A DNA stretch of 64,000 bases from Haliclona indistincta (Eukaryota > Porifera > Demospongiae > Haplosclerida > Chalinidae): NCBI GenBank assembly GCA_964017065.1, contig OZ024785.1:4254588-4318587 (forward strand), read 5' to 3'. Below the pieces are notes generated by a model. It ran no database searches, was not told where the DNA came from, and worked only from the letters and a program-made list of their open reading frames with translations. The position numbers were made by a program, and so were the translations under genes. Positions 1 to 64,000 of the stretch are shown here, piece after piece; positions within the stretch are counted from its first letter, which is position 1, and the number at the start of each line of letters is the position of its first letter.

Positions 1-793
1 GCTATAAATAATAATAAACAATGATAATTATTGTTAGCAGTATACATGAAGCTCACTGACAAACATGAACATGTTTGAAGCTACTCTAACTCCATTGATG
101 GGTACCACAGTGACAGTGAAGTTGTTGTCAGGATCAGGATGGTCAATGGAGTAGTACAGCATGGTAGTGTCCCCCTCTACTGACATTGTCTCATTCTCTC
201 CACCGGTGGTGTTGATGATGGTGACATAGTAGCCCAGGATGGGTACCCCCTCCAGAGTGAAGGGAGGACTCCAGGAGATGAGGACAGTAGTGGAGTTGAT
301 GGAGACCACCGTGAGGTTACTGACTGACTCTAATGGACCTAAATGCAAATCAATAACGAATTATCCATCATAGGTGCATCGGTTCTACCTTGCACCATCA
401 ACAGTACTGGGTGACTCTCAGCTGTTGTTATACTGGGAGAAAAATTGACAGCAAAGCATGTAATGTTGGTAGCATTGTCAGTAGAAGTCACTGTAAGTCT
501 CAGTGTTGACATGCGAATATTTATTGATCCGTTTAATATTACTGATTTTATAGTGGTTTCCTCGTCATTGTCTAATTGCAGTCCGTTTGCTCTCCAAGTA
601 ATGGTATTACCAACAGCAGTACAGGTGAACTCAGCCACTGCATTGATGGAGACATTGACAGCTCTAGGGTGAATGATGATATCTATAAAAAAGAAGCAAT
701 AATAAATTGCCATGCACTACTAGACTAACCAGCTTTTTTTGCTGTTATGATATTAGGCAAGAAACATAGGCAGACGACTAGTATCCTCGCCAT
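1..793 (-). CDS. Ig-FN3 receptor, 5' part (cut by window edge)
   Basis: The N-terminal part of a single-pass surface receptor. Exons on the minus strand are the signal peptide (793-730, starting MARILVVCLCF), the Ig domain (682-389), the FN3 domain (338-57) and the first base of a stalk exon at position 1. All junctions are GT-AG and phase 1. The Ig exon has the FTC...W...NITC cysteine-tryptophan-cysteine pattern and several N-glycosylation sites. The FN3 exon has the cluster-wide core around SWSPPFTL but ends in a divergent VRVASNMFMF segment instead of AGPGE. The gene at 54846-56240 is a close copy that supplies the missing stalk, TM and tyrosine-motif tail, so this gene probably continues leftwards the same way. 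It originally faced the gene at 5183 head to head; a 4.2-kb insertion now separates them. Receptor identity is secure; ligand is unknown. Confidence 0.85.
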
Positions 794-1020
794 CCAGATT
801 TGCAATTATGTCATTATGTAAAATTATGTGCGATTATGTGGGTGTAACGTACCACGCCCATCGACAAAGAATTTGCAGCATCATGCAGGAGGTATTGTAA
901 CAGTCAAAAAACGCACAAGGACCCGACCTAAGGACCGCGATCTTTAACCCGTCCGCCCATTTACCATCGCGATCGCGCAGCGCAGCGACTTCGCGTCTTC
1001 CCTTCTACTACTCAGTTCAC

Positions 1021-1266
1021 CTTGTTACTTGATGTAATGTTACTGTACTACTCTGGTAGTCTCTACTAACTCTATTCTTGCACTCAGAATAGTTAGATCT
1101 ATTTAAAGCATGCTGGTGATGTGTTACCAGCACTGTGATTGCAGTAGCAATCCAGGTATTGTATTCGATAAGGACCCACACTTGTAACTTGATGTAGAAA
1201 TAAGCTAATCTCACTGGGCTGCTCAGGCAGTCTCTACTAATTCTATTCTTGCTGTCTGAAAAGTTA
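1021..1266. repeat. 172-bp satellite, short array in left arm
   Basis: About one and a half copies of the same 172-bp unit found at 3203-4452, with the hallmark segments aagcatgctggtgatgtgtt and cgataaggacccacacttgt. The array is interrupted at 1266 by the nested element and resumes at 3203. Confidence 0.85.
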
Positions 1267-1892
1267 GGCTGACGGTAAAACCCGGAATTTCAGAATTCCG
1301 GACGGAATTCCGTCCGGAATATTCCGTCACAATAATAGTACCTGGTACTGGTTACCCGTGCGCAGTATGCGCCAGGGTTATTACCCGTGCGCAGTATGCG
1401 CCAGGGTTATGTGTTTGTGTCCGTCTATATGTGTGGAAAAAACACGCTTGTTTACGTCTCACCGCTCGAAATTCGCCACAAAAGTGCACTTTGCAACTTC
1501 CTCACTGAATTTATAGTCCTATGAAGACGTTTTCTGTGCTGGCAAGCCTTGCTCGAGCGGCTAATCCATGGCTTTCTAAAGCTACGTGTGCTTGTAAGAG
1601 CACTTTACGGTATTGTGGGTGTGTCACCCTACCTCCTATCCAGATCGATGTCCTCACTCAGTCTCACGTGTACCATACGCAGAGTCCAGCCCAGTATCTG
1701 TCTTTCTTGAGATAGGCCAAGCACCTGTTAGTGCATATAGGCGGTAGCTCTGGAGCTGTCTACGGACTAGCTGTAACGTGAGTGTTCACTGTTGCAGTAA
1801 ATTAATGCTGTAGTCGTGTTATTTAGCTCAGCGCACGGGTATGTGTTCATTGGAACTCTAGTTAAACTAGCTACTAATCCCAAGACCCTAAA

Positions 1893-2160
1893 ACATTCGC
1901 CTAACAGCGCCCAGTATTCGCCTAACAGTAGCCAGTATTCGCCTAACAGTGGCCAGTATTCGCCTAACAGCGCCCAGTATTCGCCTAACGGCGCCCAGTA
2001 TTCGCCTAACAGCGCCCAGTATTCCCCTAACAGCGCCCAGTATTCGTCTAACGTGCCCAGTATTCAGTATGGACCTAACGGCGCCCAGTACTATATTCTT
2101 CTGGCACGTTAGGCGAATACTGGGCGCTGTTAGGCGAATACTGGGCGCTGTTAGGCGAAT
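1893..2160. repeat. 21-bp minisatellite, part in inverted orientation
   Basis: About nine tandem copies of a unit like cctaacagcgcccagtattcg run from 1893 to about 2095, with single-base variants. About 2.5 copies in the opposite orientation follow at 2108-2160. Copies abut without unique spacers, so this is not a CRISPR array. Because 21 is divisible by 3 it gives an open frame (1816-2112, heptad YSPNSAQ), which I regard as non-coding. A single inverted copy reappears at about 3031-3050 next to telomere-like gggtttagggttt. Confidence 0.85.
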
Positions 2161-5182: not shown

Positions 5183-8100
5183 ATGTCTATCGCAGTCTCG
5201 ATAAGATTAAGTCTAATCTTACTGCTATATTCTCAAGGTTGGAGCACTCATTTTATAGCTGCTCAAGAAGCAAATAAGTTTACTACTAACTAACTAGATG
5301 TAGCCCGACCCGATGGGTAGTTAACTTTGGATAGGAGATGCATGAGGATGACTCCGCACGAACAAACCCAATATTTACGGTATATATATACGTATACATG
5401 TGTTTAGCTGTATTATTGATTGTCTTGAATGCTAAAGTGCTTGCAGCAAGCACTTTAGCATTCAAGACAATCAAGTTGCTTGTGTCTTAGCAAGCATGCT
5501 TGTTCAAAAATTGTATGTGCATCAGCAAAATAGTACATGTTCGCTGTCAACTGATGTTTGTAACCTGCTATGTGCCACTAGCTGCTGATGAAGCATACTA
5601 AGATTGAGGAACAAAGTAGTGAGGAGAGCACTGCGTGAAAGTTTTAGTAGTATTCATAACATACACATTTATGTCAAAATCGTATGCTAGCAAGGTCATA
5701 GAACCCGCTAATCAGGACACTAACAGTCTCATAAGAAATTTGTTAAGTGTTCATTTGGGACCACATGCATTACAGTGATGTCCCTATTTGAGAGGTGTCC
5801 TTATTTGAGATGTCTATTTGAGGGGTGTTCACATTGAGGGGTTCCACTGTATTCAGTCTGTATTAGACAGCAGCTTGTACATTCAAGTGTGCTATCCCAA
5901 TAATAACAGCTTTGGCGATTGACCTTTAATTTATGTTTGCATGTTAGGAAAGGTGTGAAGAATTTGACTTCCAAATTATCTCCACTTCTGCTGCTTATGA
6001 TTATTGTTTGTACAACATGCAGTGTGAGTACTATAAGTTTACCTAATATGTAATTGTGTTGCAGATATCACCATTCCTCCACAAGCTGCCAATGCCTCCA
6101 TCAATGCAGTGGCTAAGTTCACCTGTACTGCTGTTGGTAATGCATTTACTTGGAGAGCCAACGGACAACAATTAGAATATGGAAATGGAACTGGAATTAC
6201 TATAAAAACAAAATTATTACAAAATGGAGTTGTAAATATTCGTGAGTCAACACTGAGTCTGACAGTGACTTCTACTGACAATGCTACCAACATTACTTGC
6301 TTTGTTGTTAGCTTTTCTCCCAATATAACAAGTGTAGAAAGTCACCAAGTACTGTTGATGGTGCAAGGTACTGTTGTACTATGATGGGTCATGTATAATA
6401 TTAATTTGCATGTAGGTCTGTTAGAGTCAGTCAGTAACCTCACTGTGGTCTCCATCAACTCCACTACTGTCCTCATCTCCTGGAGTCCTCCCTTCACTCT
6501 GGGGGGGGTACCCATCCTGGGCTACAATGTCACCATCACCAACACCACCAGTGGAGAGGAACTTGAAACAGCAAACACTACCATGCTGAATTACATATTC
6601 TCCATTGACCATCCTGATCCTGACAACAACTTCACTGTCACTGTGGTACCCATCAATGGAGCTGGACCAGGAGAGACTGTGACCAAATGTTTTCTATTCC
6701 CGATTGGTGAGATATTATCTACATAGTACTGTTATTATTTTGACCTATAGATAAGCTCATGCCATCAGTTGTCAGAACCACTCCACTGCCCTTCACAGAT
6801 TCAGTGTCAACTACTGTTTCTACTAATGATATTGACACAACTGTCTGTAAGTTTTGTTAAATTTTTACCAAGAGTCCATACATTCTTGTTTGCCTAGACA
6901 TTAATTTTAGTAGTAACACTTTTATTTTTATTGGTATAAGCTCATTCCAGCATGTTTACATGTGCATTAGAGGTAAAATAATTCTAAAAATAGTCTCTCC
7001 CTTATTTGTGCATGTTTTAATCACCTGACATATCATAACCACCCATGACCTTAGAACTTGCATCATCCTCTTACAATGTGTATGGAAGTCACTATTGTTT
7101 TTATAGTCACACGATGCACGAGAATTTAGGTACCGTATTTCTTCTAAAGATTCGGCGCCTCCTATTTTTCGGCACCTTGTCGCTGAAATGTGTACTAAAC
7201 CTTCAAATTTCGGCAAACGCTTTAGTTCTTCCACTTCTTTGTCATGGTCAGCAAACAGCTTGATGTGAAAAGTCTTGGAATCATAGAATAGAGCTGTTGG
7301 CGTCAAATAACGTATTTGTTGTCACACCTCCAATTATTCGAACTTCTGTCACAATTACCTCCAAACATTGGGCAAGAAATTATTTATTTTGTGCCGTATT
7401 TTTAGAAGAAATACAGTAATGCCTGCTTGCAAATAAACAGGAATTCTTATCATGAAAATTCTCTATTCCATAACTTTTTGAATGTAATGTTTGTGTGTAT
7501 TAATCAGTTACAATCACTCTTTGTGGTTTCTATGTCTGAGTCAGTTGTCTGTCTTGTCTTTATAGCTGTTACTGCACTTGGACCACCTACTATTACACCT
7601 GCTGTTACACTTATTACTCCTTCAATTCCCCCCACATTCAGTAAGTCTGAAAGCAATTGTTGCATTATGATGCTAGGTACTATTATATAGATGATACTAC
7701 TAATATCATCATTGGAGGCGTCATTGGAGGACTTGTGATTGGATTTCTTGTGATTATCACAACTTTTGTCGTTGTTGCTGTTGCTGTTGTGGTTTGGAAA
7801 AGTCAGAATTTTTATTATTGTTTTGTGATAGGATAACCACAATATTTTGTGATTACAGGATCAAAGTCAGGAAAATTGAATGTAACGCAACTGGTATGGT
7901 TCAAATTTTTATACTTCTTACTTAGACTTTAATTTTTGTGTTACAGGAGAATGCTGCAACTACGTATGGAAAATACTGCTGGAATACCTGAACAACTGGA
8001 ACAAGTTTCACGTATCCATCAAGCGCACGGCCAGCCAACACATGATGAAGTGAGTCTACTAATGATTTGTAGTTGTAACTGTCATTGCACTAGGCAATGA

Positions 8101-8690
8101 CATGTAGGGAACATGACAATAATTCAAAAGTCTTGGCAAACTCATAAAGAAATCCTTTGGATAACTGTTTGTATAATTATTGTTAACTGTACCAATGCTT
8201 ACCCTCATTTGGATGTGCCCTTATGCAATGTGCACGTGTTGCAGGATAAATTATAGTATTATCGAGGCATGTGATGGCATCATGGCATGGAAGATCATGG
8301 TTTATCATGTTCATACACACTGTAGCTTTTCTGATCAAATCTGATTTATTTCAATCTCATTGTACACTTGTAAATTAATCATAACTTTTGATCAGAATAA
8401 ATTATTATTCAAATTACTTCTTATAGGCTGAGATTTAGCTCTTAGTTGATTAGACTTAGATAAGAGAGGTCGGCAAAGGCAGATCTCACATCATTACTAT
8501 TATTCCAAGTTCATGCTTCATCGTAAAATTTTTTGCTAACTACAAGTCATAAAAATTCTCTTCTCTCTGACCGCAGAGTACAACTGTTTCCAACTCTAGA
8601 ATTGATGATGATTCTGGTGTTGTTGTAAAGTCTATGGAAGCTACAACATCATTTAGTACTTCGGAACCTGTGAGAGAGGTGAGTTATTAG
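5183..8690 (+). pseudogene. Ig-FN3 receptor, probably inactivated copy of 56404-59929
   Basis: Exons mirror the intact gene at 56404: signal peptide 5183-5273, Ig 6065-6367, FN3 6416-6706, stalk 6751-6846 and 7566-7640, TM 7691-7801, tail 7859-7893, 7947-8049 and 8577-8690. Two defects are visible. The exon-1 donor, gcaa|gtaagt in the intact copy, reads gcaa|ataagt here, so translation would run into a stop at 5291-5293. Tail exon 7947-8049 has 4 extra bases relative to the 99-base exon of the copy, shifting frame to an early TGA. Ig (FTC...W...NITC) and FN3 folds are otherwise open. Its FN3 carries the GEELETANTTMLNY variant, unlike its sister gene. The upstream promoter is split by the 4.2-kb insertion. 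An unannotated alternative first exon could rescue it. Confidence 0.75.
7131..7418. mobile_element. MITE in a receptor intron
   Basis: Inverted termini taccgtatttcttctaaa (left) and the complement of tactgtatttcttctaaa (right), bounded by TA, which suggests a Tc1/mariner-type two-base target duplication. It lies in the intron between the two stalk exons. The same element occupies the same intron of the copy gene (58316-58602), so it predates the segmental duplication. Confidence 0.7.
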
Positions 8691-9649
8691 TTCACTTTGT
8701 GCTAAGGTGGTGGATACAGGAATTACAAAAAAGTATTCATAACAAAATGTGGGAATGTTTGGCAAAGATACGGATTTCTGCTAGTTAATAACATATTGTG
8801 GTTTCAGTCTTTTTGTTCTCCATAGTAGTACGCGGATTTTTATACACATTTTTATTATGATGCCTGGTGTTCGCAGTTTTTTGCTTTAAGATGTGCGGCC
8901 TGGTGTCCTTTGTGGTTCTGCGCATGCTTTTAAATCACTGCGACTGCTTTCTCGTGTTATGGCCGCCAGAGTTGTGCGTGGGCAGATAAGATCGCTCTGT
9001 TTGGCCTAATAGAAGCTGAGGAATGGCAAATCCATATGCATGCATAGGACAATGACCAGGTATAATAACAAAGCTCTGTAGGAAATAACATCCCGATAGA
9101 ACTGTACAATGTATCTGTAGAACTAAACCATCAAAAACCGTCATTTTGTTTTGACAGTGAGCTATGAGCGTTGATTCTTATTCGTAGCACTGCATATTTT
9201 ACATACAGTAAGTATACTAATGTTAGTGTAGGTTTGCTTCTTCTCAGCCGTAGAGAAATAATAAAGGTAATTACTAATGATATTCATGGTGAGCACCACG
9301 GTGGGATCTGCCAGAGTTAATTTTTATATTGTTACAAAGCAGTGTATTTATACGTCTCTGGATGATTGCATGGTACAACTAAATTGTGAATTAGCATGCC
9401 TCAAAACCATTTGTTGATCAGAGGCAATTCTAAATTCTCGTATCACAAGTCAATTGACAGGATTACGAGTGGAATCAAGTATAAGTCAATAGGAGTTTTG
9501 CACATACAACTTTGACGCACATTTTTCATGTTAGTAAACGTTGCTATGACGCCATTTTGAGTGTCAGACAAGAAGTATTTTTGATAACTAAATGACGTGG
9601 TACAGTATTCAGATGGTTTAGTATTCAGACATTAATTTTTGTGTTACAG
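8691..9649. other. Non-coding stretch after broken receptor
   Basis: No gene is recognised. The segment about 8700-9150 is homologous to 11490-11960 and 59930-60370, so it is the duplicated 3' flank of the receptor gene. Open frames here are not preserved between the three copies. Confidence 0.6.
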
Positions 9650-9944
9650 AAGAATACAGAAAATACTGATGGAATATCTGAACAAGCATCAGAACTTTCA
9701 TGTGTCCCTCAAACGCACGGCCAGTCAACACACGATGTAATGAGTGTACAAATGATCTGTAGTTCAATTGTAATTGCACTATGCAATGACATGTAGGGAC
9801 CATGATTTAAGATGGCAATAATACGAAATTCATGGCAAACTCATAAGAAAATCCTCTGGATAACTGTTTATACAATTATTGTTAACTGTAGCAATGCATT
9901 TGGATGTACCCTTATGCAACACTTGTTGCAGGATAAATAATAGT

Positions 9945-10966
9945 TAGACAGTGCGTCTGAGGATCTACGCGATTTAGAAGCCCGAGAGCCGTTGCTATAT
10001 AGCGTCCGAGCGTAGCGAGGACGCTATGGCAACGGCGCGAGGGCTTCTAAATCGCGTAGATCCGATTGGATGCACTGTCCAACTGGTTTAGACTATAGCA
10101 ACAGCGAACAGAAACGACGCAAGCCAGTCGAAATCAAACGAGCAAAGCAACGACTCGCTTTTTGTTCTGTCTTCGTTGACGACGATATTCCTTGGATACC
10201 CGTGGGCTGGCAGAAATATGAATAGGCTCCAGAGCAGTGCAAAGAAGAACGCCGTCGAAGATTTAACTGAAGACTTGCTATGGGCTAAAGGTTTGCTAGG
10301 AGGTGAAACACCGAATATGCTATTGGACACTGTAGTTGTCTACAATGGTCTGTACTTCGCACTACGCAGTGGGGGAGAGCATTGCCTATTGAGACATTCA
10401 CCTTGCCAAGTTGAGGTGGTCGAAAAGCCAGGTGAGCGACCTTATCTAGTCTACCACGAAGACCGTGACACATCCAGGAACCATCCTAGTGGTCTACAGG
10501 GATGCAAAACTATGCCTATAAGGTTGTTGTTCGCTACTCCAACACACAGAACCCCGAGAGATGCTTCGTCGCTCTATTTAAGATGTATAGACAACTTTGC
10601 CCTGACGATCCAGTGGACAACGCATTCTACCTGCAACCATCGCTTTCTCCAACTGAGACCTGCTGGTACACACGGAAACCACTGGGTCACGCCTCGCTCA
10701 GTACTACAGTGGCTCGACTGTGCAAACAAGCTGGCTCCGACGACTAACCAGACTCAAGAGAGACTCACCAGAGATCTACCATAGCTAACTTTATTGATTA
10801 TTCAGGCTATTATTTTTGCGCATTAATCGTAATCTATTGTTTTAGCACCACGTGGCGGGATTACATTAAGGAGTGGCGGGATTACATTATGGGTGGCGGG
10901 ATTACATTACGAGATTTAGATCCAAGCAACTAGACAATCTGATTGGCTTATACCACTAAGCTATAG
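9945..10966. mobile_element. Inserted element carrying a Crypton-like gene
   Basis: Alignment with the empty homologous sequence at 8241 and 59450 shows about 1 kb of extra sequence beginning with ttagacagtg and ending with the complement ctatagtctaa. A hairpin at about 9962-10063 has arms containing gatctacgcgatttagaagc. Near the right end tggcgggattacatta is repeated three times (10853-10900). Exact ends are uncertain by a few bases. Confidence 0.6.
10176..10784 (+). pseudogene. Crypton-like tyrosine recombinase (DUF3504) remnant
   Basis: The frame beginning at 10176 contains GGETPNMLLDTVVVYNGLYF and the conserved GGEHCLLRHSPCQVEVVEKP region that I recognise from the DUF3504 domain of Crypton-derived proteins (as in QRICH1 and ZMYM families). 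After NHPSGLQG at about 10490-10500 the homology jumps to another frame: NTQNPERCFVALFKMYRQLC, then CWYTRKPLGHASL, to about 10747. A further break follows where the family has its TNHSLRAT segment. So the gene is frameshifted at least twice and lacks the downstream catalytic Arg-His-Tyr region. Family assignment is by memory of motifs; activity is not expected. Confidence 0.75.
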
Positions 10967-12393
10967 TCTAAATTATAGTAATATCCAGGCATGTGATGAC
11001 ATCATGGCAAGGCAGAATTGTGCGTTTACATAGAAGCATGAAATGTGAAGGACTAAACACGGTTTATCATGATGTTTATACACAGTAGCTTTTCTGATCA
11101 AATGTGGTTATTTCAACACAGTATAGTTTGCTCATTGTACACTTGTACACATGTATTTGTAGTTGCAGTAAATTAATCATAACTTTTGATCAGAATAAAT
11201 TATTATTCAAGATACTTCTTATAGGCTGAGATTTAGCTCTTGACTACAGTTCATTAGACTTAGATAAGAGAGGTCGGCAAAGGCAGATCTCACATCATTA
11301 CTATTATTCCAAGTTCATGCTTCATCGTAAACTTTTTTTGCTAACTACAAGTCATAAAATTCTCTTCTCTCTGACCGCAGAGTACAACTGTTTCCAACTC
11401 TAGAATTGATGATGATTCTGGTGTTGTTTTAAGGTCTATGGAAGTTACAACATCATTTACTACTTCGGAACCTGTGAGAGAGGTGAGTTATTAGTTTACT
11501 TTGTGCTAAGGTGGCGGATACAGGAATTATTTAAAATTATTCATAACAAAATGCAGGAATGCTTGGCAAAGATACGGATTTCCACTGGTTAGATAACATA
11601 TTGCGGTTTCAGTATTGTTGTTCTTCATAAAAGTACACGGATTTTATACACACTTTTATTATGATGCCTGGTGTTCGCAGTTTTTTTGCTTTAAGGTGTG
11701 CAGCCTGGTGTCTTTAGTGGTTCTACACATGCATGCTTTGAATAACGACGACTTCTTTCTCATGTTATGGTGGTACGTGGGCGGATAAGATCGTTCGGTT
11801 GACGGCCTAATAGAAGCTGAGGAATGGCAAATCCATGCTTATGACAATGACCAGGTGTATAAAAAACTCAGTAGCAAATAGCATCCCGATATAACTCTAT
11901 CTAAAACTGGGCCGTCACAAACCACTCGTTTTGGTTTGAAAAAATGAGCTGCGCGCATTGATTTTTACTTTCTCAATGTAAATAACGTCGGTTATGCCTG
12001 AGATGCTTAGTGCAATAACTGGCTTATAAAAATTATAATTACTGTAGTCCATCGTACGAGGCACAACTGGCATCCAGAACATGTTCGGTGTCGGTGGTTA
12101 CTAAAACCCGGGACGGGACGGGACTCAGGCGGGATGTCCCGTCCCGTCCCGCATACTAAAATGCGGGACGCATAAGGGTGGGGAGGGCGTGACTCGTACC
12201 TTTGCTCACGTGCTTGCTATTCGACGATGACGAACAGAGTCTTCGATCTCCAGAAATCTGTTTCTATATCTGTTTCCATTACAGAAGTTGTTGCAATTCT
12301 AACAAGGGCAAAGGAACAGGGACTGGAGCAAGATGGTGATACGATCATTACTAATCCTCCAAAGAAGCCAAAGGCTGGTGAACTGTACTAAGC

Positions 12394-14994: not shown

Positions 14995-15215
14995 AAATTT
15001 TCATAGTCATCCTTATAGCCATGTTATTTTCTTCATGAACAATATCAGTGATATTCTCATATTCAGGAAAAATTTCATGACCATAGATTGTAGTTGAATT
15101 CTTGCCAACCACTCCTATTCAAGGTAGTGGATCCTCTGTAGTGCGTGCATGACTATCTGGTAAGCAGGATTATCACTGACTGGTATCTTCAAGTAGAGCT
15201 CTAGCTCATATTCTC
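14995..15215 (-). pseudogene. Degenerate tyrosine-motif tail exon
   Basis: On the minus strand this resembles the tail exons of 15502-17184 and 54846-56240: a degraded GGAG..AGAGCTC..ACTTGAAGAT..CCAGTCAGTGATAATCC segment (15118-15212), then remnants encoding EYENI-like and DDYENF-like peptides (15000-15070). Frameshifts and stops make it non-coding. A matching relic lies at 61190-61480. Confidence 0.6.
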
Positions 15216-15501
15216 CATTTAATTAAAAAAAATTGACATTGTGTTCAAATGAGTATAGGAGTGGTTTGATGTAAATTGCACAACTATGCATTGTACATCC
15301 TGTTAAAATACCATTGTGATTACAGCATCATTGGATTCAATGTAAAACTGTAGTATGTGTATACTATGCATTGCAGTTATGCAAGCCTTTTGTTGTGTCA
15401 ACTGATCATAAAAGAAAATAATTATTATGATAGGCGTGAAAATATGAAGTGTGCTGTAACTGATACTGATACATATTGTCGTGTATTATTTTGCACTGGA
15501 G

Positions 15502-17184
15502 CTACACAGTCACATTCTCATAGTCATGCTCTTCCTGTGTAATGTTATCATATTGATGAGTGAGACCATCATTACTGGTCTGCTGCTGAGTCCTCTGCAG
15601 TGTAGTGACCATCTGGTAAGTAGGATTATCACTGACAGGTACCACATCCTCAAGTGGAGCTCTAGCTGCTCCTGTTACCGCTGTAACCAATGCTGTCATC
15701 AGCTGCAAAGAGAATAATGGCTTACTTTGTTGTTTTTTTCTGTGCAGATAGCCACCAATTATCACAGCCACTAACACTATGATAGTTGACACAGTAGCCA
15801 CATTTAGAGTAACCGAAGCTGCTATTATAGTTATGGCTGAAATAATTATTGTGATAAACAAGGATTTTTGAAACATCTGTTTACATCACCTGCTGAATCA
15901 GTTATTATCATTGATGGTTCCAAAGGTGATGCTATAAATAGCTCAGTTACATAAACTATACACTTTACCTTAATAACAATTTACCTGTACCATTGAACAA
16001 GAGTAAACTGTGCATGCAATAGCATCATCACCTGTTATAACTATTGAAGGAATCATTGTTGATGTCCTGGTTGCATAAACAGCTATAGAGATGCAAAAAT
16101 AAATAAATAAATTTTCATTTCAATTTAACCACTGGCAATGCTTGTCTGAGAAAGATGTGTTGTGGTTGTGGCTGTCATAACTGAAGTCATTCTTGATATG
16201 CTCATTGGACCAGATGATGATGATACTGTAGAAAAACAACACAATCAGCTAGACACTACAAAATATTGACTCTGCCCACCACACAGGTACAGTTATCAAA
16301 ATTGTGACACAGGCATGTGCTTGAAGCATATATGTAGGTAACTGAATCATCAATAATACATATGAAAGCAAATAGTGGTACACAAATTAATAATTTTGCT
16401 CCAATCACCTTGATTATCATATGAAATCATGAAGGCAATAGTCGTTTTAGGTTGATCATCGGTCTTATAGATTGGGATCACAGTGACAGTAAAGTTACTG
16501 TTTGGATCAGGATCGTCAATGGAGAATGTGTAATTTAGCATGGTAGTATTCTCCAATTCTAGAATTTCATTCTCTTCGCTGGTGATGTTGGTGATGGTGA
16601 CATTGTAGCCCAGGATGGGTACCCCCTCCAGAGTGAAGGGAGGACTCCAGGAGATGAGGACAGTAGTGGAGTTGGTGGACACCACATTGAGGTTACTAAC
16701 TGGTCCTGTGTGTTGTAAACACTAACATGGTGGTATAATGTGGGTTCAGTACATACCTGGTTCAAACACAAGGAGAACAACTGGGTCACTTTTCATTATA
16801 GATAATGGAGATAGAAAGTAGGCCACACAAGTGATGTTGGATCCATTGTTATCAGCTGATCCAAATGCTAACAATGTTCTTGTGCGGAGATTCTGTGTTG
16901 CATTCAATAGTGTTAGTGGTACAGCATCATCATTGAACCCTCTACTACTGAGATGATCATCAACAGGTACTCCATTGACCTCCCATTCAATTTCTCCTGC
17001 AACAGCATTACATGTGAAGTTTGCTGTTCCATTGACTGCAATATTCACAGGCTTTGGAAAAGCAATAATACCTGCATTTAATAAAACATCAATAATTTAT
17101 AAAAATTAGTAATTTACTTGCTTGTTGAGCAACTATTGAGTCTACGGTAAGCACGCAGAAAAGAACCAAGAGCACTCGTACCAT
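15502..17184 (-). CDS. Ig-FN3 receptor with tyrosine-motif tail
   Basis: Seven exons, 368 residues: signal peptide 17184-17118 (MVRVLLVLFCVLT), Ig 17071-16757, FN3 16705-16409, stalk 16225-16130 and 16082-16032, TM 15836-15726, tail 15671-15502. All junctions are GT-AG in phase 1. The TM exon (residues about 276-312) uses the acceptor ttatttcag; the ATG just upstream of it (15876) is intronic. The tail has DNPTYQMV (NPxY type, PTB-like), HQYDNI and HDYENV (YxN, Grb2-SH2-like). The FN3 N-terminal half is the shared core; its C-terminus is divergent (VIPIYKTDDQPK). It faces 17255-19416 across only 70 bp. Gene 61760-63425 is its copy. Likely a signalling receptor; ligand unknown. Confidence 0.88.
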
Positions 17185-21784: not shown

Positions 21785-22039
21785 TGAAAAAGTGTGTGTG
21801 GTTTCACTACCTTACCTTGCACTAGCTAGATGCATTGGCAAGAAGCTTGGAAATGATCTTAGACAGGACAGCTTGACTTTAACGAAAACAATGCACTATT
21901 ATTTTTCATTAATTTGGCTGTGTGTATGACTCACACGCACACACACTGTAAATTTTGTATCATTGTGTTCTCATACCATAATGCTGATGGTGGTACAGAT
22001 ATATAGGATCGACTTACACAAGATTTGTAGAATTGATCA

Positions 22040-47921: not shown

Positions 47922-49402
47922 CTATTCAACTTTCTCATAATCATCTTCTGCATTACTGCAGTTATCTGTTTTAAGCTCAACATTCTCATACTGAGATGCT
48001 TTCTTATTGAAGTGATTTTGCATTTTAAATCCTTGCATTGCATGTGAAGCTGTCTCGTAAGCAGGATTTTCATCAACTTGCACCACATCTTGTAGTGTAG
48101 CTCTAGTTTCTGCATAAAATCATAATCAACGTTACTTTAATGAATCAGCATATTTACTTTTCCATGTGACGTAATTTCTTAATCGATAACAGCACATTAT
48201 TGTAACAACCGTACTCACAGACAAGATAATCACCACAATGAAAACATTGACTGCTATCAATGTTGTAATAATTACAACTGACTCAGAGACTGCAGAGTGA
48301 TAAAAACCACTTAATTGTTATTGATAATACACGGTATTGTAGCTACATACCTGTCACATTGCTTGAAGATTCAGATGGAGCAATTGTAGTTTTACTTGGA
48401 ACATGTACTGTTTAAGTATGAATCAATAACCCACATTATACTTGTATAATTTACCCGTAGTTTTTGTCAGAAGAATTTTAGTTGAAATAGAAAATGATGT
48501 CTCTGAAAGGATTGACCAACAGAATAATTATTTAATCTCAAAGATGTTCTTACGGGCACTGAAATGAAAAACAAAGGACGAAGTCTGTCCTGGTCCAGCT
48601 CCATTGATGGGTACCACAGTGACAGTGAAGTTGTTGTCAGGATCAGGATGGTCAATGGAGTAGTACAGCATGATAGTGTCCCCCTCTACTGACATTGTCT
48701 CATTCTCTCCACTGGTGGTGTTGGTGATGGTGACATTGTAGCCCAGGATGGGTACCCCCTCCAGAGTGAAGGGAGGACTCCAGGAGATGAGGACAGTAGT
48801 GGAGTTGATGGAGACCACAGTGAGGTCACTGACCGACTTTAATAGACCTATACAAATTCCGAAAAAAACAACTCATTGTGTTGTATGACGCTTTTGCTCA
48901 CCTTGAACAAGTAGTATTACTGGTGTACTCATGTTGCCCACAATTTTTTGAAAAGAAACCTGTAATACAACAACACACACTATGCTCGCATTGTCACTGT
49001 CAGGAGATCCTATAACTCGCAATTGTCTCATGCGCAAGTTTTGCATTGCAATTAATGGTAGTTCCTCAAAGCCATTAGTAATAAAATCCGCATTGAAATT
49101 GTCTCCATTGATTCTCCAAGTGATGTCTGTTGCAATAGCAGTACAGTTGAACACAGCATGATCGCCGCTGGAGATGTTCTTAGACTGCGGTGAACTGATG
49201 AAACCTAATGGAATCAGTATTAAAGTCAGTCATCACTGACTGTCATGGTCTAATGCACGCCGTTAGAATCTACTCAACATTAGTTACAAGTGTCTACATT
49301 TTGTATGTGCGTGCTTCTTGAGAAATCATACTTACGTGCTTCTTTTGAAATCACTAGAACAAGCGGAATGCAGAATATCAAACAAAGACGCAGTATCGCC
49401 AT
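47922..49402 (-). CDS. Ig-FN3 receptor with tyrosine-motif tail
   Basis: Seven exons, 362 residues: signal 49402-49336 (MAILRLCLIFCIPLVLVI), Ig 49204-48902, FN3 48847-48554, stalk 48502-48455 and 48407-48351, TM 48289-48158 (residues about 257-300, with CC before a basic RLRNY), tail 48109-47922. Junctions are GT-AG, phase 1; FN3 uses the donor GTAAGA at 48553 rather than an upstream GTGCCC in the same phase. The tail carries VDENPAYETA, SQYENVEL and a final DDYEKVE. The Ig exon keeps FNC...W...VCVV. Faces 49571-53844 with 168 bp between start codons, so co-regulation with a Death-domain receptor is likely. Confidence 0.88.
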
Positions 49403-49570: not shown

Positions 49571-53844
<4,274 letters not shown>

Positions 53845-53893
53845 TCTAATGACTGGGTGTTATTATGTGATCATGAACAGCTGCAATTTATCA

Positions 53894-54845: not shown

Positions 54846-56240
54846 TTATTCAACATTCTCATAGTCGCCTTCATCACAAATATTTTTCTCATTTTCTTTG
54901 TGTTCAACGTCCATTCCTGGAATATTCTCATACGATGGTGCGGTAAGAATGCTTTTCAGCTGTGATTTATCACTTCTCTGTAGTGTATACGTAGTGACCA
55001 TCTGGTAAGCTGGATTTTCATTGACTGGTACCACGTCCTCAAGTGGAGCTTTACCTACTCCTGCATTGTGCATGGACACTGCTTATCAAAGGCATAATTG
55101 TTGTTGACTTACTGTTCTTTTGATATCTTCTGAGGATATAACAGCATAATATTATAGCACATGTAACCAGTATGGTGAGCACAGTAATCACATTTACTAC
55201 TATCAGAGTTGGTACTATAATAGATAATAGCTGTTGATACTAGTATGCTGAAACTGTCACAGTACCTGTTAAATTATCTGCAGAATCTGGCAATACTATA
55301 GTTGGGACAATTGTTGATGTCATGGTATAAGTTGATGAAAGTTCAGTGAATTGAATACTTGTTAAAACAATAGACTTTGTAGACTTTTGAATGTTTGAAG
55401 TGGAACTAAGCACCAGTGTTGTAGGCATCGTGAAGTATCCAATATTTGCTATAAATAATAGTAAACAATGATAATTATAGTTGACAGTATACATGAAGCT
55501 CACTGACAAACATGAAAATGTTTGAAGCTACTCTAGCTCCATTGATGGGTACCACAGTGACAGTGAAGTTGTTGTCAGGATCAGGATGGTCAATGGAGTA
55601 GTACAGCATGGTAGTGTCCCCCTCTACTGACATTGTCTCATTCTCTCCACTGGTGGTGTTGGTAATGGTGACATAGTAGCCCAGGATGGGTACCCCCTTC
55701 AGAGTGAAGGGAGGACTCCAGGAGATGAGAACAGTAGTGGAGTTGATGGAGACCACAGTGAGCTCACTGACTGACTCTAATGAACCTAAATGCAAATCAA
55801 TAATGAATTATCCATCATAGGTGCATCAGTTCTACCTTGCACCATCAACAGTACTGGATGACTCTCAGCAGTTGTTATACTGGGAGAAAAATTGACAGCA
55901 AAACATGTAATGTTGGTAGCATTGTTAGTAGAAGTCACTGTCAGACTCAGTGTTGACATGCGAATATTTATTGATCCGTTTAATATTACTGATTTTATAG
56001 TGGTTTCCTCGTCATTATCTAATTGCAGTCCGTTTGCTCTCCAAGTAATGGTATTACCAACAGCAGTGCAGGTGAACTCAGCCACTGCATTGATGGAGAC
56101 ATTGACAGCTTGTGGATGAATGACGATATCTATAAAAAAGAAGCAATAATAAATTGCCATGCACTACTAGACTAACCAGCTTTTTTTGCTGTTAAGATAT
56201 TAGGCAAGAAACATAGGCAGACGACTAGTATCCTCGCCAT
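54846..56240 (-). CDS. Ig-FN3 receptor with tyrosine-motif tail (copy of 1-793 gene)
   Basis: Six exons, 379 residues: signal 56240-56177 (MARILVVCLCF), Ig 56129-55836, FN3 55785-55504, one long stalk exon 55448-55266 (Ser/Thr-rich), TM 55214-55113 (residues about 275-308, LIVVNVITVLTILVTCAIIL), tail 55060-54846. All junctions phase 1. The tail shows NENPAYQMV, PSYENI and a terminal DYENVE. FN3 ends in the same unusual RVASNIFMF as the partial gene at 1-793, whose DNA is nearly identical. It faces 56404-59929 across 163 bp. Family and architecture are secure, role is inferred. Confidence 0.9.
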
Positions 56241-56403: not shown

Positions 56404-59400
56404 ATGTCTATCGCAGTTTCGATTAGATTAAGTCTAATCTTACTGCTATATTCTCTTGGTTGGAGCACTCATTTTATAGCTGCTCAAGAAGCAAGTAAGT
56501 TTACTACTAACTAACTAGATGTAGCCCGACCCGATGGGTAGTTAACCTTAGGATATAGGAGATGCATGAGGATGACTGCACGAACAAACCCAATATTTAC
56601 GGTATTTATGTACATGTGTTTAGCTGTATGATGCTATAATATTGATTGTCTAGAATGCTTAAGTGCTTGCTTGTGTCTTAATTAGCAAGCATGCCTGTTC
56701 AAAAATTGTATGTGCATGTGTGCATCAGCAAAATAGTACATGTTCGCTGTAAACTGATGTTTGTAACCTGCTATGTGCCACTAGCTGCTGATGAAGCATA
56801 ATAAGATTGAGGAACAAAGTAGTGTGAGAGCACTGCGTGAAAGTTTTGCTAATGACATACACGTTTGTCGAAATCGTATGCTAGCAAGGTCATAAAACCT
56901 GCTAATCCGGACACTAATTACAGTCTACTCATAAGAAATTTGTTAAGTGTTCATTTGGGACCACATGCATTACAGTGGTGTCCCTATTTGAGATGTGTCT
57001 TTATTTGAGAGGTGTTCACAGTGTGGGGTTCCACTATATTCGGTCTGTATTAGACAGCAGCTTGTACATCCAGACTGTACATCTTGTACATTCAAGTGTG
57101 CTTTCTCAATAATAACAGCTTTGGCGACTGACCTTTAATTTATGTTTGCGTGTTAGGAAAGGTGTGAAGAATTTGACTTCCCCACTTCTGCTGCCTATGA
57201 TTATTGTTTGTACAACATGCAGTTTGAGTACTATAAGTTTACCTAATATGTATTGCAGATATCACTATTCCTCCACGTGCTGTCAATGCATCAATCAATG
57301 CAGTGGCTAAGTTCACCTGCACTGGCATTGGTAATACTTTTACTTGGAACTCAAACGGACAGCAATTAGAGTATGGGAATGGAACTGGAATTAGTATAAA
57401 AACAAAATTATTGCAAAATGGAGTGGTAAATATTCGCATGTCAACACTGAGATTTACAGTGTCTTCTACTGACAATGCTACCAACATAACATGCTTTGTT
57501 GTTAGTCATTCTTCTATAACAACAGCTGAAAGTCACCCAGTACTGTTGATGGTTCAAGGTAGAACTGATGCACTATGATGGGTCATGCATAATATTAATT
57601 TGCATGTAGGTCTGCTAGAGTCAGTCAATGACCTCACTGTGGTCTCCATCAACTCCACTACTGTCCTCATCTCCTGGAGTCCTCCCTTCACTCTGGAGGG
57701 GGTACCCATCCTGGGCTACAATGTCACCATCACCAACACCCCCACTGGAGAGAATGAGACAATGTCAGTAGAGGGGGACACTACCATGCTGTACTACTCC
57801 ATTAACTATCCTGATCCTGACAACAACTTCACTGTCACTGTGGTACCCATCAATGGAGCTGGACCAGGAGAGAATGTGACCAAACGTTTTCTATTCCCGA
57901 TTGGTGAGATATTATCTACATAGTTCTGTTATTATTTTGATCTATAGATGAGCCCATGCCATCAGTTGTCAGAACCACTCCACTGCCCTTCACAGATTCA
58001 GTGTCAACTACTGTTTCTACTAATGATATTGACACAACTGTCTGTAAGTTTTGTACCAAGGGTCCATACATTCTTGATTGCCTAGACATTATTTTAGTAG
58101 TAACACTTTTATTTTTAGTGGTATTAGCTCATTCCAGCATGTTTACATGTGCATTAGAGGTAAAATAATTCTAAAAATAGTCTCTCCCTTATTTGTGCAC
58201 GTTTTAATCACCTGACATCATAACCACCCATTACCTTAGAATTTACATCATCCTCTTACAATGTGTACGGAAGTCACTATTGTTTTTATAGTCACACTTT
58301 GCACAAGAATTTAGGTACCGTATTTCTTCTAAAGATTCGGCACCTCCTATTTTTCGGCACCTTGTCTTTGAAATGTGTACTAACCTTCAAATTTCGGCAA
58401 ACGCTTTAGTTCTTCCACTTGTTCGTCATGGTCAGCAAACAGCTTGACGTGAAAAGTCTTGGAATCATAGAATAGAGCTGTTGGCGTCAAAACACGTACT
58501 CGTTGCCACGCCTCCAATTATTCGAACTTCTGTCACAATTACCTACAAACATTGGGCAAGAAATTATTTATTTTGTGCCGTATTTTTAGAAGAAATATGG
58601 TAATGCCTGCTTGCAAATAAACAGGAATTCTTATCATGGAAATTCTCTATTCCATAACTTTTTGAATGTAATGTTTGTGTGTATTAATCAGTTATAATCA
58701 CTCTTTTGTGGTTTCTAAGTCTGAGTCAGTTGTCTGTCTTGTCTTTATAGCTGTTACTGCACTTGGACCACCTACTGTTACACCTGCTGTTTCACCTATT
58801 ACTCCTTCAATTCCATCTTTTACATTCAGTAAGTCTGAAAGCAATATTGCATTATGATGCGAGCTACTGTTATATAATTAATTTTAATAGATGATACTAT
58901 TATCATCATTGGAGGCGTCATTGGAGGACTTGTGATTATCACAATTGTTGTCGTTGTTGCTGTTGTGGTTTGGAAAAGTCAGAATTTGTTGTTATTGTTT
59001 TGTGATAGGGATAACCACAATTTTTGTTATGTCATTGGTCTTAATTGCAGGGCCAAGGCTTAGAAAATATACAATGACTGGTCAGCAACAGGTATGCTTC
59101 AAATTTTTATACTCCTTAGACATTAATTTTTGTGTTACAGGAGAATGCTGGAACTACGGAAAATGCTGCTGGAATACCTGGACAAGCATCAGAACTTTCA
59201 CGTGTCCCTCAAACGCACGGCCAGCCAACACACGATGTAGTGAGTCTACTAATGATTTGTAGTTGTCATTGCACCATGCAATGACATGTAAGGAAGATGG
59301 CAATAATACAGCAAATTCATGAAGAAATCCCACGGATAACTGTTTATATAACTGTAGCAATGCTTATCCTCATTTGGACGTATTCTTACGCAACACTTGT

Positions 59401-59929
59401 TCCAGGATAAGTACCGTAACCCTCGCGCATGCGCCGAGGGTTAAATATGGTATTATCCAGGCATGTGATGACATCATGGCAAGGCAGATCATGGAAGAAT
59501 TGTGAAATTTGAAGGACTAAACATGGTTTATCATGTTCATACACACTGTAGCTTTCCTGATCAAATCTGATTTAGTTCAACACAGCGTATTTTGCTCATT
59601 GTATACTTGTATTTGAATCAGAATAATTATTATTCAAGTTTCAAATACTTTTATAGGCTGAGATTTAGCTCTTAGTTGATGAGACGTAGATAAGAGAGGT
59701 CGGCAAAGGCAGATCTCACATTTATTAATATTACTATTATTCCAAATTTCATGCTTCATCTTAATTTTTTTGCTGACTACAAGTCATAAAATTCTCTTCT
59801 CTCTGACCACAGAGTACAACTGATTCCAACTCTAGAATTCCTGATGATTCTGGTATTGTCTCTGATAACTCTATGGAAGTTACAACATCATTTACTACTT
59901 CAGAACCTGTGAAAGAGGTGAGTTATTAG
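56404..59929 (+). CDS. Ig-FN3 receptor with shortened DSG-type tail
   Basis: Nine exons, 400 residues: signal 56404-56494 (SIRLSLILLLYSLGW), Ig 57259-57558, FN3 57610-57903, stalk 57948-58043 and 58751-58828, TM 58891-58977 (IIIIGGVIGGLVIITIVVVV), tail 59051-59091, 59141-59239 and 59813-59929. TM donor GTCAGA is weak but conserved in the sister at 5183. The last exon matches 51824-51911 of 49571-53844 and contains PDDSGIVS. It could splice at GTGAGT (59918), but no later exon is found, and reading on gives VSY-stop at 59927-59929, which I take as the end; a Death-domain tail would then have been lost. Its FN3 is the GENETMSVEGDTTMLYY type, unlike the sister gene. Partner of 54846-56240. Confidence 0.8.
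58316..58602. mobile_element. MITE in a receptor intron
   Basis: The orthologous copy of the element at 7131-7418, with termini taccgtatttcttctaaa and tttagaagaaatatggta and TA borders, in the same intron. Confidence 0.7.
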
Positions 59930-61189: not shown

Positions 61190-61480
61190 TCTAGCATTCA
61201 GCAACTGTACTAGTTGTTATGCACATTTTGTATTCAAAATTTTCATAGTCATCCTTATAGTCATGTTATTTTCTTCATGAACAATACACATGTATCAGTG
61301 ATATTCTCATATTCAGGAAAAAGTTCATGACGATGGATTGTTTTTGAATTCTTGCCAATCACTCCTATTGAAGGTAGTGGATCCTCTGTAGTATAGTGCA
61401 TGACTATCCAGTAAGCAGGATTATCACTGACTGGTAGTAGATCTTCAAGTAGAGCTCTAGCTCATATTCTCCATTTAATT
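61190..61480 (-). pseudogene. Degenerate tyrosine-motif tail exon
   Basis: Counterpart of 14995-15215. The minus strand shows a degraded GCTAGAGCTCTACTTGAAG ... CAGTCAGTGATAATCCTG segment (61375-61465) and EYENIT- and DDYENF-like remnants (61198-61325). No open frame links them. Confidence 0.6.
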
Positions 61481-61759
61481 CCAAAAAATTAACTTTGTGT
61501 TCAAATGAGTATAGGAGTGGTTAGATGTAAATTGCACAACTATGCATTGTACATCCTGTTAAAATACCATTGTGATTACAGCATCATTGGATTCAATGTA
61601 AAACTGTCGTATGTGTATACTATGCATTGCAGTTATGCAAGCTTTCTTGTTGTGTCAACTGATCATAAAAGAATTATAATTATTTTGATAGGCGTGCAAA
61701 TATAAAGTGTACAGTAACTGATACTGATACATATTGTCGTGTGTTATTTTGCACTGGAG

Positions 61760-63425
61760 CTACACAGTCACATTCTCATAGTCGTGGTCTTCCTGTGTAA
61801 TGTTCTCATATTGATGAGTGAGACCATCATTACTGGTCTGCTGCTGAGTCCTCTGTAGTGTAGTGACCATCTGGTAAGCTGGATTATCACTGACTGGTAC
61901 CACATCCTCAAGTGGAGCTCTAGCTGCTCCTGTTACCGCTGTAACCAATGCTGTCATCAGCTGCAATGGCTTACTTTGTTGTTTTTTTCTGTGCAGATAG
62001 CCACCAATTATCACAGCCACTAACACTATGATAGTTGATACAGTAGCCACATTTAGAGTCACCGAAGCTGCTATTATAGTTGTGGCTGAAATAATTAGTG
62101 TGATAAACAAGGATTTTTGAAACATCTGTTCACATCACCTGCTGAATCAGTTATTATCATTGATGGTTCCAAAGGTGATGCTATAAATAGCTCAGTTACA
62201 TAAACTATACACTTTACCATAATAACAATTTACCGAACAAGAGTAATCTGTGCATGCAATAGCATCATCACCTGTTATAACTATTGAAGGCATCATTGTT
62301 GATGTCCTGGTTGCATAAACAGCTATAGAGATGCGAAAATAAATAAATACATTTTCATTTCAATTTAACCACTGGCAATGCTTGTCTGAGAAAGAAGTGT
62401 TATGGTTGTGTCTATCATAACCGAAGTCATTCTTGATATGCTCATTGGACCAGATGATGATGATACTGTAGAAAAACAACATAATCAGCTAGACACTACA
62501 AAATATTGACTTTGCCCACCACACAGGTATAGTTATCAAAATAATGTGACACAGGCATGTGCTTGAAGCATACATGTAACTGAATCATCAATAATACATA
62601 TGAAAGCAAATAGTGGTACATAAATTAATAATTTGGCTCCAATCACCTTGAATATCATATGAAATCATGAAGGCAATAGTCGTTTTAGGTTGATCATCAG
62701 TCTTATAGATTGGGATCACAGTGACAGTGAAGTTACTGTTTGGATCAGGATCGTCAAGGGAGAATATGTAATTTAGCATGGTAGTATTCTCCGATTCTAG
62801 AATTTCATTCTCTTCACTGGTGGTGTTGGTGATGGTGACATTGTAGCCCAGGATGGGTACCCCCTCCAGAGTGAAGGGAGGACTCCAGGAGATGAGGACA
62901 GTAGTGGAGTCGATGGAGACCACAGCGAGGTCACTGACTGGTCCTGTGTGTTGTAAACACTAACATGGTGGTATAGTATGGGTCCCGTACATACCTGGTT
63001 CAAACACAAGGAGAACAGCTACTCCACTTTTCATTATAGATAGTGGAGATATGAAGAATGCTACGCAAGTGATGTTGGATCCATTGTTTTCAGTTGATCC
63101 ATTGACTGACATTGTTCTAGTGCGGAGGTTCTGTGTTGCATTCAGTAGTGTTAGTGGTACAGCTTCATCATTGAATCCTCTGCTCCTGAGATGATCATCG
63201 ATAGGTTGTCCATTGACCTCCCATTCAATTTCTTGTGCAACAGCAGTACATGTGAAAATTGCTGTTCCATTGACTGCAATATTCATAGGCTTTGGAAAAG
63301 CAATAATACCTGCATTTAATAATAAAACATCAATAATTTATAAAAATTAGTAATTTACTTGCTTGTTGAGCAACTATTGAGTCTACGGTAAGCACGCAGA
63401 AAAGAACCAAGAGCACTCGTACCAT
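61760..63425 (-). CDS. Ig-FN3 receptor with tyrosine-motif tail (copy of 15502-17184)
   Basis: Seven exons, 368 residues: signal 63425-63359, Ig 63309-62995, FN3 62943-62647, stalk 62465-62370 and 62322-62272, TM 62085-61975, tail 61929-61760. Lengths equal those of 15502-17184 exon for exon. The tail shows DNPAYQMV, HQYENI and HDYENV; the first two differ from the copy (PTYQMV, YDNI). Differences are concentrated in the Ig exon (for example NENNGS / SVNGST where the copy has LAFGSADN), while FN3 differs little. Faces the gene at 63496 across 70 bp. Confidence 0.9.
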
Positions 63426-63495
63426 ACCTCTCTTGGAATTTAAATAGGCGGGGTCTCAACACTGCACTGGGACCGCCGTTAACTAGGACCTTGAT
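63426..63495. promoter_or_regulatory. 70-bp shared divergent promoter (copy)
   Basis: Nearly identical to 17185-17254, including tttaaatagg and the ggcggggtc / gaccgccg words, which argues that both are functional or very recently duplicated. Confidence 0.55.
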
Positions 63496-64000
63496 ATGGA
63501 CCTTTTGCTGTTTTTCTTTTCTTTCACCTACTTGGCGCTATCATTTGCCCAACAAGCGAGTGAGTTGTCTGTAGTCGCAACCGTATATTTGTACTTTTGA
63601 TACGCTATACGTAAAAGTAGAAAGCCATGCAACGTCTGCTGCTGTTCATAGTATTTCTAGTCATGCAATGTGTATTCTCTGCTGTTAGCGTATATATTGC
63701 TGTTTTATTATTATTATATGCAGGTATTATTGTTTTTCCAAAGCCTGTGAATATTGCAGTCAATGGAACAGCAAACTTTACGTGCACTGCTGTTGCCGAT
63801 GAAATTGAATGGGAGGTCAATGGTCAACCTGTTGATGCTAATCTTAGGAGTAGAGGGTTCAATGATGATGCTGTACCACCAACACTACTGAATGCAACAC
63901 AGAATCTCCGCACAAGAACAATGTCAGTGAATGGATCTGCTGATAACAATGGATCCAACATCACTTGTGTAGTATACTTTTTAAATCCATTTTCTTCTAT
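63496..64000 (+). CDS. Ig-FN3 receptor, 5' part (cut by window edge)
   Basis: Signal peptide exon 63496-63559 (MDLLLFFFSFTYLAL) and the Ig exon from 63724 running off the window. The visible Ig sequence (NIAVNGTANFTC, EIEWEVNGQPVD) is identical in nearly every base to 17484-17760 of gene 17255-19416, so the remainder is expected to be FN3, two stalk exons, TM and a tyrosine-motif tail. This is the fourth member of the right-hand quartet. Confidence 0.85.

Follow-up and report, generated by a model that had tools for sequence, protein, structure and literature searches.

Paired receptors, as set out in PMC3533184 and PMC5701461 (here and below, a cited paper stands for excerpts of its text), have similar ectodomains, different cytoplasmic parts and a likeness that is kept by gene conversion or recombination. 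These papers, like PMC2832619, concern mammals. In the primate Siglec-11/16 pair, receptor genes of the immunoglobulin superfamily (IgSF) lie head to head about 9 kb apart, and their ectodomain exons are kept alike by repeated gene conversion while their outputs differ, being inhibitory in one and activating in the other via an adaptor with an immunoreceptor tyrosine-based activation motif (ITAM) (PMC5701461). In the mammalian CEACAM genes, a birth-and-death family, the ligand-binding N exon is homogenised between ITAM-like paralogues and those with an inhibitory counterpart (ITIM), and in several cases the converted tract barely exceeds the exon region (PMC2832619). Here we describe an arrangement resembling these in the sponge Haliclona indistincta. 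The window that we analysed comprises 64,000 nucleotides of assembly GCA_964017065.1 (144 Mb, 46 contigs), at positions 4254588-4318587 of contig OZ024785.1 (hereafter C3), and holds part of a cluster of genes for receptors with an immunoglobulin (Ig) domain, an FN3 domain, a transmembrane (TM) helix and one of two classes of tail. We consider it probable that these are sponge paired receptors, in which one sensing head is mounted on two signalling chassis and kept matched by gene conversion. Siglec-11/16 would be the closest working analogue and the CEACAM pairs the next; the sponge genes differ from Siglec-11/16 in forming a family of pairs, and in having start codons only 0.07-0.28 kb apart in 10 of the 16 pairs examined.

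Among early-branching animals, the Alr genes of Hydractinia are likewise clustered, encode IgSF membrane proteins and include many broken copies, and unlike the sponge cluster they have a function established by genetics (PMC11067881). Sponge Ig proteins have also been tied to immunity or adhesion, as Ig-TIR receptors (PMC6208332) and as a Geodia adhesion molecule (PMC11999971); these differ from the present family in having TIR tails or an adhesion role, and the excerpts of both papers mention no paired layout. Our searches found no open-licence paper on paired receptors in Porifera, on invertebrate paired receptors with gene conversion or on sponge Ig-FN3-Death allorecognition, and looser searches gave no title describing such a sponge system among the matches listed. 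To our knowledge, paired receptors are known from vertebrates only, Siglec-11/16 has neither FN3 nor Death domain, the CEACAM genes have no fixed divergent pairs and no FN3 or Death parts, and Alr lacks Death tails as well as divergent pairs whose ectodomains match. A first-pass annotation of the window had held that no named system has exactly this layout, which stands to the letter but overlooks Siglec-11/16 and CEACAM as close analogues. It also left out what are the most informative features of the locus, namely divergent pairing, matched cassettes and a homogenised FN3 exon.

Scans of the window with family hidden Markov models (HMMs) and tblastn identify 14 Ig heads along with 13 FN3 exons, in agreement with the at least 14 related receptors of the annotation; the 14th Ig is cut at the right window edge, and its FN3 lies just beyond. 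When the window was resampled five times under a first-order Markov model, the four family models together gave 1, 0, 0, 0 and 0 hits, so the receptor cluster is not due to chance. Two tail classes on one ectodomain plan had been claimed, and we likewise see nine tyrosine (Y) and five DSG/Death-type (D) tails, with heads 1 and 14 classed as Y from 8-kb flanks fetched on either side. The window covers roughly one seventh of a main cluster of about 450 kb (C3:3.999-4.450 Mb), delimited by a whole-genome FN3 search in which 150 of 447 candidates were scored and which also returned copies elsewhere on C3 and on C5, C10, C4 and C6. Death matches of at least 60% identity all lie at C3:4.03-4.43 Mb (150 of 386 candidates scored).

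Twelve of the 14 heads have a divergent neighbour (pairs 1/2, 3/4, 6/7, 9/10, 11/12 and 13/14, two of them wide). The same bias is seen for 106 FN3 exons in four clusters, where neighbours within 3.5 kb are divergent in 24 cases, convergent in five and on the same strand in 12; shuffling of strands gave a mean of 10.5 divergent neighbours and reached 24 in 0 of 20,000 trials. This test took 115 of the 150 scored FN3 rows, nine of which fall outside the four clusters, the other 35 rows being distant or partial matches. Clusters C5a, C5b and C10 have three divergent neighbours each, such that the layout recurs in clusters on three contigs. Across the window and 200 kb of fetched sequence, ten of the 16 divergent pairs examined have predicted start codons 69-276 bp apart, which suggests joint expression; window pairs 3/4, 9/10, 11/12 and 13/14 have gaps of 70, 168, 163 and 70 bp. 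The remaining gaps are 450, 1138, 1513, 4389 (pair 1/2) and 8806 bp (pair 6/7), and no convincing start was found for pair 4178246/4181812 (seven-digit gene names are C3 positions). Pair 11/12 is related to pair 1/2, yet has 163 bp between start codons against about 4.4 kb; between genes 1 and 2 lies a 172-bp tandem array (window 3203-4975) of about seven copies followed by three in the opposite orientation. The 70-bp spacer between heads 3 and 4, 94% of which is conserved in a second pair, is a candidate shared promoter. Where both tails could be classed, the partners differ in all 11 pairs (eight Y/D, three Y1/Y2), a count that includes several duplicates of one another, one D member, 4086929, that has an FN3 but in which no Ig was found, and the weakly supported tail of 4044857.

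In the two best-matched pairs, the Ig-intron-FN3 cassette is 98.0% (4044857/4047051) and 92.6% (4058841/4061980) identical in DNA between partners. The only DNA homology found between 4044857 (minus strand, D) and 4047051 (plus strand, Y) is a 627-bp inverted tract at 96.8% identity, and the only inverted homology within 4058841/4061980 is a 671-bp cassette tract at 92.5%. Both tracts begin within 5 bp of the Ig match and end 29-39 bp beyond the FN3 match. In other pairs the cassette tract stands at 83-89%, accompanied by two 32-bp tail matches in 4079/4080 and by tandem-array matches in 4254/4260, and pairs 4303/4304, 4023014/4023736 and 4125/4126 have little in common beyond FN3. Where flanks were compared, the upstream regions of partners matched in none of four cases and the downstream regions in one of five, by a 39-bp FN3 end. 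The proposition that all pairs have matched heads is rejected, as matching is found in only some of them.

The Y genes of the two best-matched pairs are alike in their tails but not in their Ig exons. Between 4047051 and 4061980 synonymous divergence (dS) is 0.07 in tail exons and 0.66 in Ig exons, compared to an Ig dS of 0.07 and 0.10 from each to its own D partner, and in the 1.1 kb that follow FN3, 505-654 bp align at 82-86% identity. Four of six Y3 tails are alike at a dS of about 0.07, with the other two at 0.21-0.35 from them. In a tree of cassettes (D gene 4296351 left out), Y3 and D heads are interleaved, and a single clade for the six Y3 heads is rejected (log-likelihood 442 lower; approximately unbiased test, p-AU 9.6e-111); the Y1/Y2 set points in the same direction more weakly (p-AU 0.013). 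The interleaved tree, together with alike tails on distant Ig exons, indicates that heads and tails evolve as separate modules. We also see that 4108238 (D) and 4164269 (Y), 56 kb apart, are sisters in this tree, and they are perhaps a pair that was split by rearrangement.

Partner Ig identity averages 63.3% over the 14 main-cluster pairs, compared to 44.2% when partners are shuffled, with 2 of 20,000 shuffles as high. When duplicates are left out and seven satellite pairs are added, the values are 55.0 and 41.2% (1 of 20,000); this second permutation omits 4271/4272, 4317/4318 and 4310/4311 as duplicates and locus L040 for its split Ig, and includes 4254/4260, at 5.4 kb apart. Without duplicates and without the two best pairs they are 50.7 and 39.9% (9 of 20,000), an excess due in part to the association of Ig subfamily with pair class.

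The two exons of the cassette, usually about 60 bp apart, have very different histories. Over 666 gene pairs, Ig has a median dS of 1.29, with 39 saturated values excluded, and FN3 one of 0.12. FN3 is thus homogenised across the cluster, for which purifying selection on the protein alone is insufficient, and which repeated conversion of the FN3 exon can produce; FN3 may in this way serve as a common homology patch for exchange between heads and tails. Positive selection was considered as the cause of Ig diversity, but our test gave it no support and we do not claim it. Among 38 gene pairs with an Ig dS below 0.35, the ratio of nonsynonymous to synonymous divergence (dN/dS) is 0.08-0.83, hence below 1, in all 37 where it is defined, the last pair being identical; a few FN3 ratios exceed 1, on the basis of 1-6 synonymous changes. 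The annotation had called the cluster fast-evolving, which is apt for the strongly diverged Ig exons but agrees neither with these ratios nor with the homogenised FN3.

The HMM searches that the annotation had proposed give a clear answer for FN3 only, which passes the Pfam cut-off in 5/5 FN3-bearing translations from four genes. Ig reaches a Pfam cut-off in two of nine Ig-bearing translations (eight genes), and Death in two single exons, barely, at 23.3 and 24.0 bits against 22.6. The Cys-Trp-Cys core that we looked for as the mark of the IgSF is invariant in all 12 aligned Ig heads. For gene 10, the predicted Ig part has block confidence scores (pLDDT) of 66-88, and its best Foldseek matches are the Ig domains of RAGE at E 0.004, with none at 0.001; a homologue search with the spliced gene returned nothing at E 0.001. 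The predicted FN3 fold (intron read through) and Death fold are of low confidence, and we draw no support from the fold searches made with them.

Gene 10 is the one intact D gene of the window's five, the others having a broken head, a truncated Death exon or none found; in the type F genes 2 and 12, a search for a Death exon found none, and DSG exons are present. The predicted model of gene 10 has 18 exons and 746 amino acids (749 with an alternative acceptor at 50046), in the order signal peptide, Ig, FN3, Ser/Thr-rich linker, TM helix, long tail (DSGFGFS, VLYATI) and Death. VLYATI, in the last tail exon before Death, is an ITIM-like motif. Of five window genes for which simple splice models were tried, genes 3, 10 and 13 and, with its first exon left out, gene 9 gave open ones; for gene 8 the model failed at one tail exon.

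At least one NPxY lies within 3.2 kb downstream in all 26 Y genes scanned in the window and fetched cluster, a count that is partly circular since the class was defined by NPxY-bearing seeds. All six Y3 tails combine NPxY with YENI and YENV. NPxY binds PTB or endocytic adaptors and is an uptake signal, and pYxN favours Grb2-type SH2 domains. A strict ITAM reading of the Y tails was rejected, as the YxxI-x6-YxxV spacing fits Y1 (genes 3 and 13) but not Y3 or the Y4 tail of gene 9. Of 13 D-gene spans, nine contain the pattern [DE]SG, two to three residues and S/T on the sense strand, and six the exact DSGxxS, which resembles a beta-TrCP phosphodegron; on the antisense strand, none of the 13 contains the narrower DSG pattern.

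The basic unit of the family is two divergent genes, often with a short gap between start codons and a presumed shared two-way promoter. Both partners encode a signal peptide, one Ig, one FN3 and a TM helix; one bears a tail with NPxY and YENI/YENV, and the other usually a long tail, often with DSG and, when complete, a Death domain, while in one pair class both tails are of tyrosine type and of different kinds. The two-exon Ig-FN3 cassette is a movable module, which gene conversion or exchange can render near-identical within a pair, each tail keeping to its class across pairs. If these genes are paired receptors, the likely purpose would be for a single cell to present one binding site on both chassis, the response to a given ligand being a tyrosine-kinase/adaptor or a Death-domain signal according to the balance of the two partners. 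Ectodomain likeness amounts to 92.6-98.0% cassette DNA identity in 2 of the 14 main-cluster pairs, is lower in others and is not found at this level in any of eight satellite pairs; different cytoplasmic parts are present in every classed pair; and upkeep by conversion or recombination is seen in the main-cluster Y3/D pairs and not in the satellites. With tails and conversion as in mammalian paired receptors and ectodomain likeness in some pairs, the genes work like a paired-receptor family, for which we do not assert full membership. We advance more tentatively, as having somewhat less than an even chance, that this sponge has evolved a paired-receptor system of its own, with some two dozen or more divergent pairs, an exchangeable Ig-FN3 cassette that can be kept alike on the tyrosine and Death chassis, one promoter and a live-or-die balance by which each pair reads a single ligand. 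If this is true, paired receptors arose independently of those of vertebrates, animals arrived more than once at matching one ectodomain to two outputs, and specificity could be renewed by cassette conversion with both outputs kept matched. The cluster would then offer concrete candidate genes for how sponges distinguish self, symbiont and pathogen.

Several observations weigh against this interpretation. Only two of the 14 main-cluster pairs, and none of the eight satellite pairs, consist of mutual best Ig matches. In C5a, genes occupying the same side in different pairs resemble each other more than they do their partners, and in window pair 9/10 the FN3 exons are 87% alike in DNA while the Ig proteins are 47% identical. 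The D tail is least certain in 4044857, a member of the best-matched pair, with a weak TM match (E 2e-4) and a DSGFNS frame and Death exon spread over about 16 kb; its first 3 kb found no match when compared with other D genes. The Death assignment is itself marginal, as spliced gene 10 scores 20.1 bits and so falls under the cut-off, the predicted fold is all-helical, of low confidence and matched no Death structure, and profile searches match the chains of RIPK1, THOC1 and FADD weakly (E 0.008-0.09). Divergent layout need not mean shared function either; in the compact genome of the sponge Amphimedon, 11,379 genes are arranged head to head and have their start sites no more than 1 kb apart (PMC4773876), and the layout alone is weak evidence of function because such genes are common there. 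This abundance, the patchy matching and the homogenisation of FN3 across the whole cluster rather than inside pairs would also be expected if the pairs were a by-product of a compact genome and inverted duplication, in which easily recombining inverted repeats homogenise cassettes without benefit and partners form no unit. We regard that as unlikely, since tails differ in every classed pair (several being duplicates), the divergent layout recurs on three contigs and homology in the best pairs ends at the ectodomain cassette. Assembly artefact is a far more improbable source of the near-identical copies. Units do repeat about 46 kb apart at 96-100% identity, and one at C3:4.08 Mb is found again near 4.34 Mb, on the opposite strand and with identical scores, as uncollapsed haplotypes or assembly errors might; however, the best-matched partners have only 0.6 kb in common between unrelated flanks, which is unexpected for a haplotype duplicate, and a database entry on a 287-kb contig, possibly from the same sample, is identical to a 264-residue read-through frame of the gene 10 head.

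An immune or allorecognition role, which the annotation had suggested, is a plausible hypothesis, and two more specific functions can be considered. The genes could be sensors of microbes or symbionts beside the NLRs of an expanded sponge innate repertoire, with the D tail triggering inflammation or death of the cell and the Y tail serving uptake, for which NPxY is a signal. The same genome has a cluster of Death genes on contig C8, with NACHT and Death in the one member scanned; Ig/FN3 genes are reported to be commoner in the genomes of sponges with low microbial abundance, and sponge genes with Ig and Death respond to microbial patterns (PMC6208332). We hold this role possible but on the doubtful side, as neither the single Ig of each receptor nor the pairing is in itself a pointer to microbes. 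A sponge histocompatibility locus, in which variable Ig domains tell self from non-self as in Hydractinia Alr, would account for a large linked IgSF family with broken copies, for single-pass receptors and for Ig exons that are highly diverse between genes. It seems rather unlikely to us, given that dN/dS stays below 1 in all 37 close Ig pairs with a defined ratio and that Alr, as far as we know, lacks FN3 and Death parts.

Broken exons, orphan tail pieces and a duplication about 46 kb apart at 96-100% identity uphold the view of the annotation that the family evolves by birth and death. The duplicated unit is a Y1/Y2 pair, at window positions 15418-17760 and 61676-64000 (offset about 46.24 kb); a third copy is inverted near C3:4.08 Mb, and a further copy is indicated near 4.34 Mb. 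Head 8 lies in tandem behind head 9. The features of the window are collected in the table.

Features of the window, in window coordinates unless marked C3
Feature	Position	Strand	Details
Head 1, Y3	88..683	-	Ig 387-683, FN3 88-330; TM and tail left of the window, C3:4253980-4254383
Head 2, D type F	5183..11482	+	signal peptide 5183-5284, Ig 6064-6369, FN3 6424-6675, TM 7693-7809
Head 2, DSG exons	8571-8678 and 11375-11482	+	duplicated set
Head 3, Y1	15130..17184	-	signal peptide 17110-17184, Ig 16761-17072, FN3 16467-16703, TM 15715-15864
Head 3, tail	15508-15666; second piece 15130-15186	-	NPTY, YDNI, YENV in 15508-15666
Spacer between head 3 and head 4 start codons	17185..17254		94% identical to the inverted spacer of another Y1/Y2 pair, C3:4079985-4080053
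Head 4, Y2 multi-motif	17255..19410	+	predicted ATG 17255, Ig 17483-17794, FN3 17852-18103, TM 18587-18730, tail 18765-19410
Gene 5, D	20242..24874	+	Ig broken in two frames (20242-20460, 20465-20539), truncated FN3 20620-20850
Gene 5, tail	23348-24584; 24641-24874	+	type C exons (DSGVGS); Death exon
Head 6, Y5	31078..32421	-	predicted signal peptide start 32421, Ig 32000-32281, FN3 31694-31948, tail 31078-31212 (NPVY)
Orphan tail pieces (head 6 entry)	30107-30202 and 27026-27573		
Head 7, D type B	41228..45351	+	predicted start 41228, Ig 41764-42051, FN3 42211-42462, TM 43236-43403
Head 7, tail	exons to 45139; 45256-45351	+	DSGIAT; Death exon truncated
Head 8, Y2	45688..47785	-	signal peptide 47696-47785, Ig 47339-47656, FN3 47010-47270, TM 46374-46520, tail 45688-46339
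Head 9, Y4	47925..49402	-	predicted ATG 49402, Ig 48900-49205, FN3 48585-48839, TM 48141-48290
Head 9, tail	47925-48107	-	NPAY, YENV, YEKV
Gene 10, D type A, intact	49571..53844	+	Ig 49680-49988, FN3 50055-50336, TM in 51050-51241, Death 53552-53844
Head 11, Y3	54849..56240	-	predicted ATG 56240, Ig 55834-56130, FN3 55535-55777, TM 55105-55239
Head 11, tail	54849-55055	-	NPAY, YENI, YENV
Head 12, D type F	56404..59917	+	signal peptide 56404-56505, Ig 57258-57560, FN3 57618-57872, TM 58890-58985, DSGIVS exon 59807-59917
Head 13, Y1	61294..63425	-	signal peptide 63351-63425, Ig 62999-63310, FN3 62705-62941, TM 61964-62113
Head 13, tail	61766-61924; further piece 61294-61461	-	
Head 14, Y2	63496..64000	+	predicted ATG 63496, Ig from 63723; FN3, TM and tail run on to C3:4320215

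A three-gene module (a D-like gene, a divergent Y4 and a tandem Y2) seems to recur, also inverted, at C3 4022698-4026773, 4300275-4308416 and possibly 4242466-4253064, the tails of the last being seen only in part. Family Ig exons at C3 4008635, 4017321, 4134227, 4173009 and 4181812 have no tail and no complete FN3 that we could find within 700 bp; several such FN3-less exons have their own predicted signal peptide, and they are either another class or decayed genes.

Elsewhere in the genome, C8:11.89-12.24 Mb has many Death hits in long open frames and may be an NLR-like cluster; the sole member scanned, L001, combines Death with NACHT (Pfam NACHT E 2e-18). On C10, serine occupies the catalytic position of a silicatein-like fragment, in a stretch 77% identical to the silicatein query, which points to a genome that is probably of a demosponge; the best matches of the query (L031 and L032) are ordinary cathepsin-like genes. 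Within the window, a 230-residue open frame with DUF3504 (Pfam E 7e-11), which we take to be Crypton-like, lies in the tail region of gene 2 (10092-10784), and a weak DDE_Tnp_4 transposase match, under the cut-off, is found at 36232-36576. GTGA and TC microsatellites occupy 28320-28583 and 51697-51815, the latter in an intron of gene 10.

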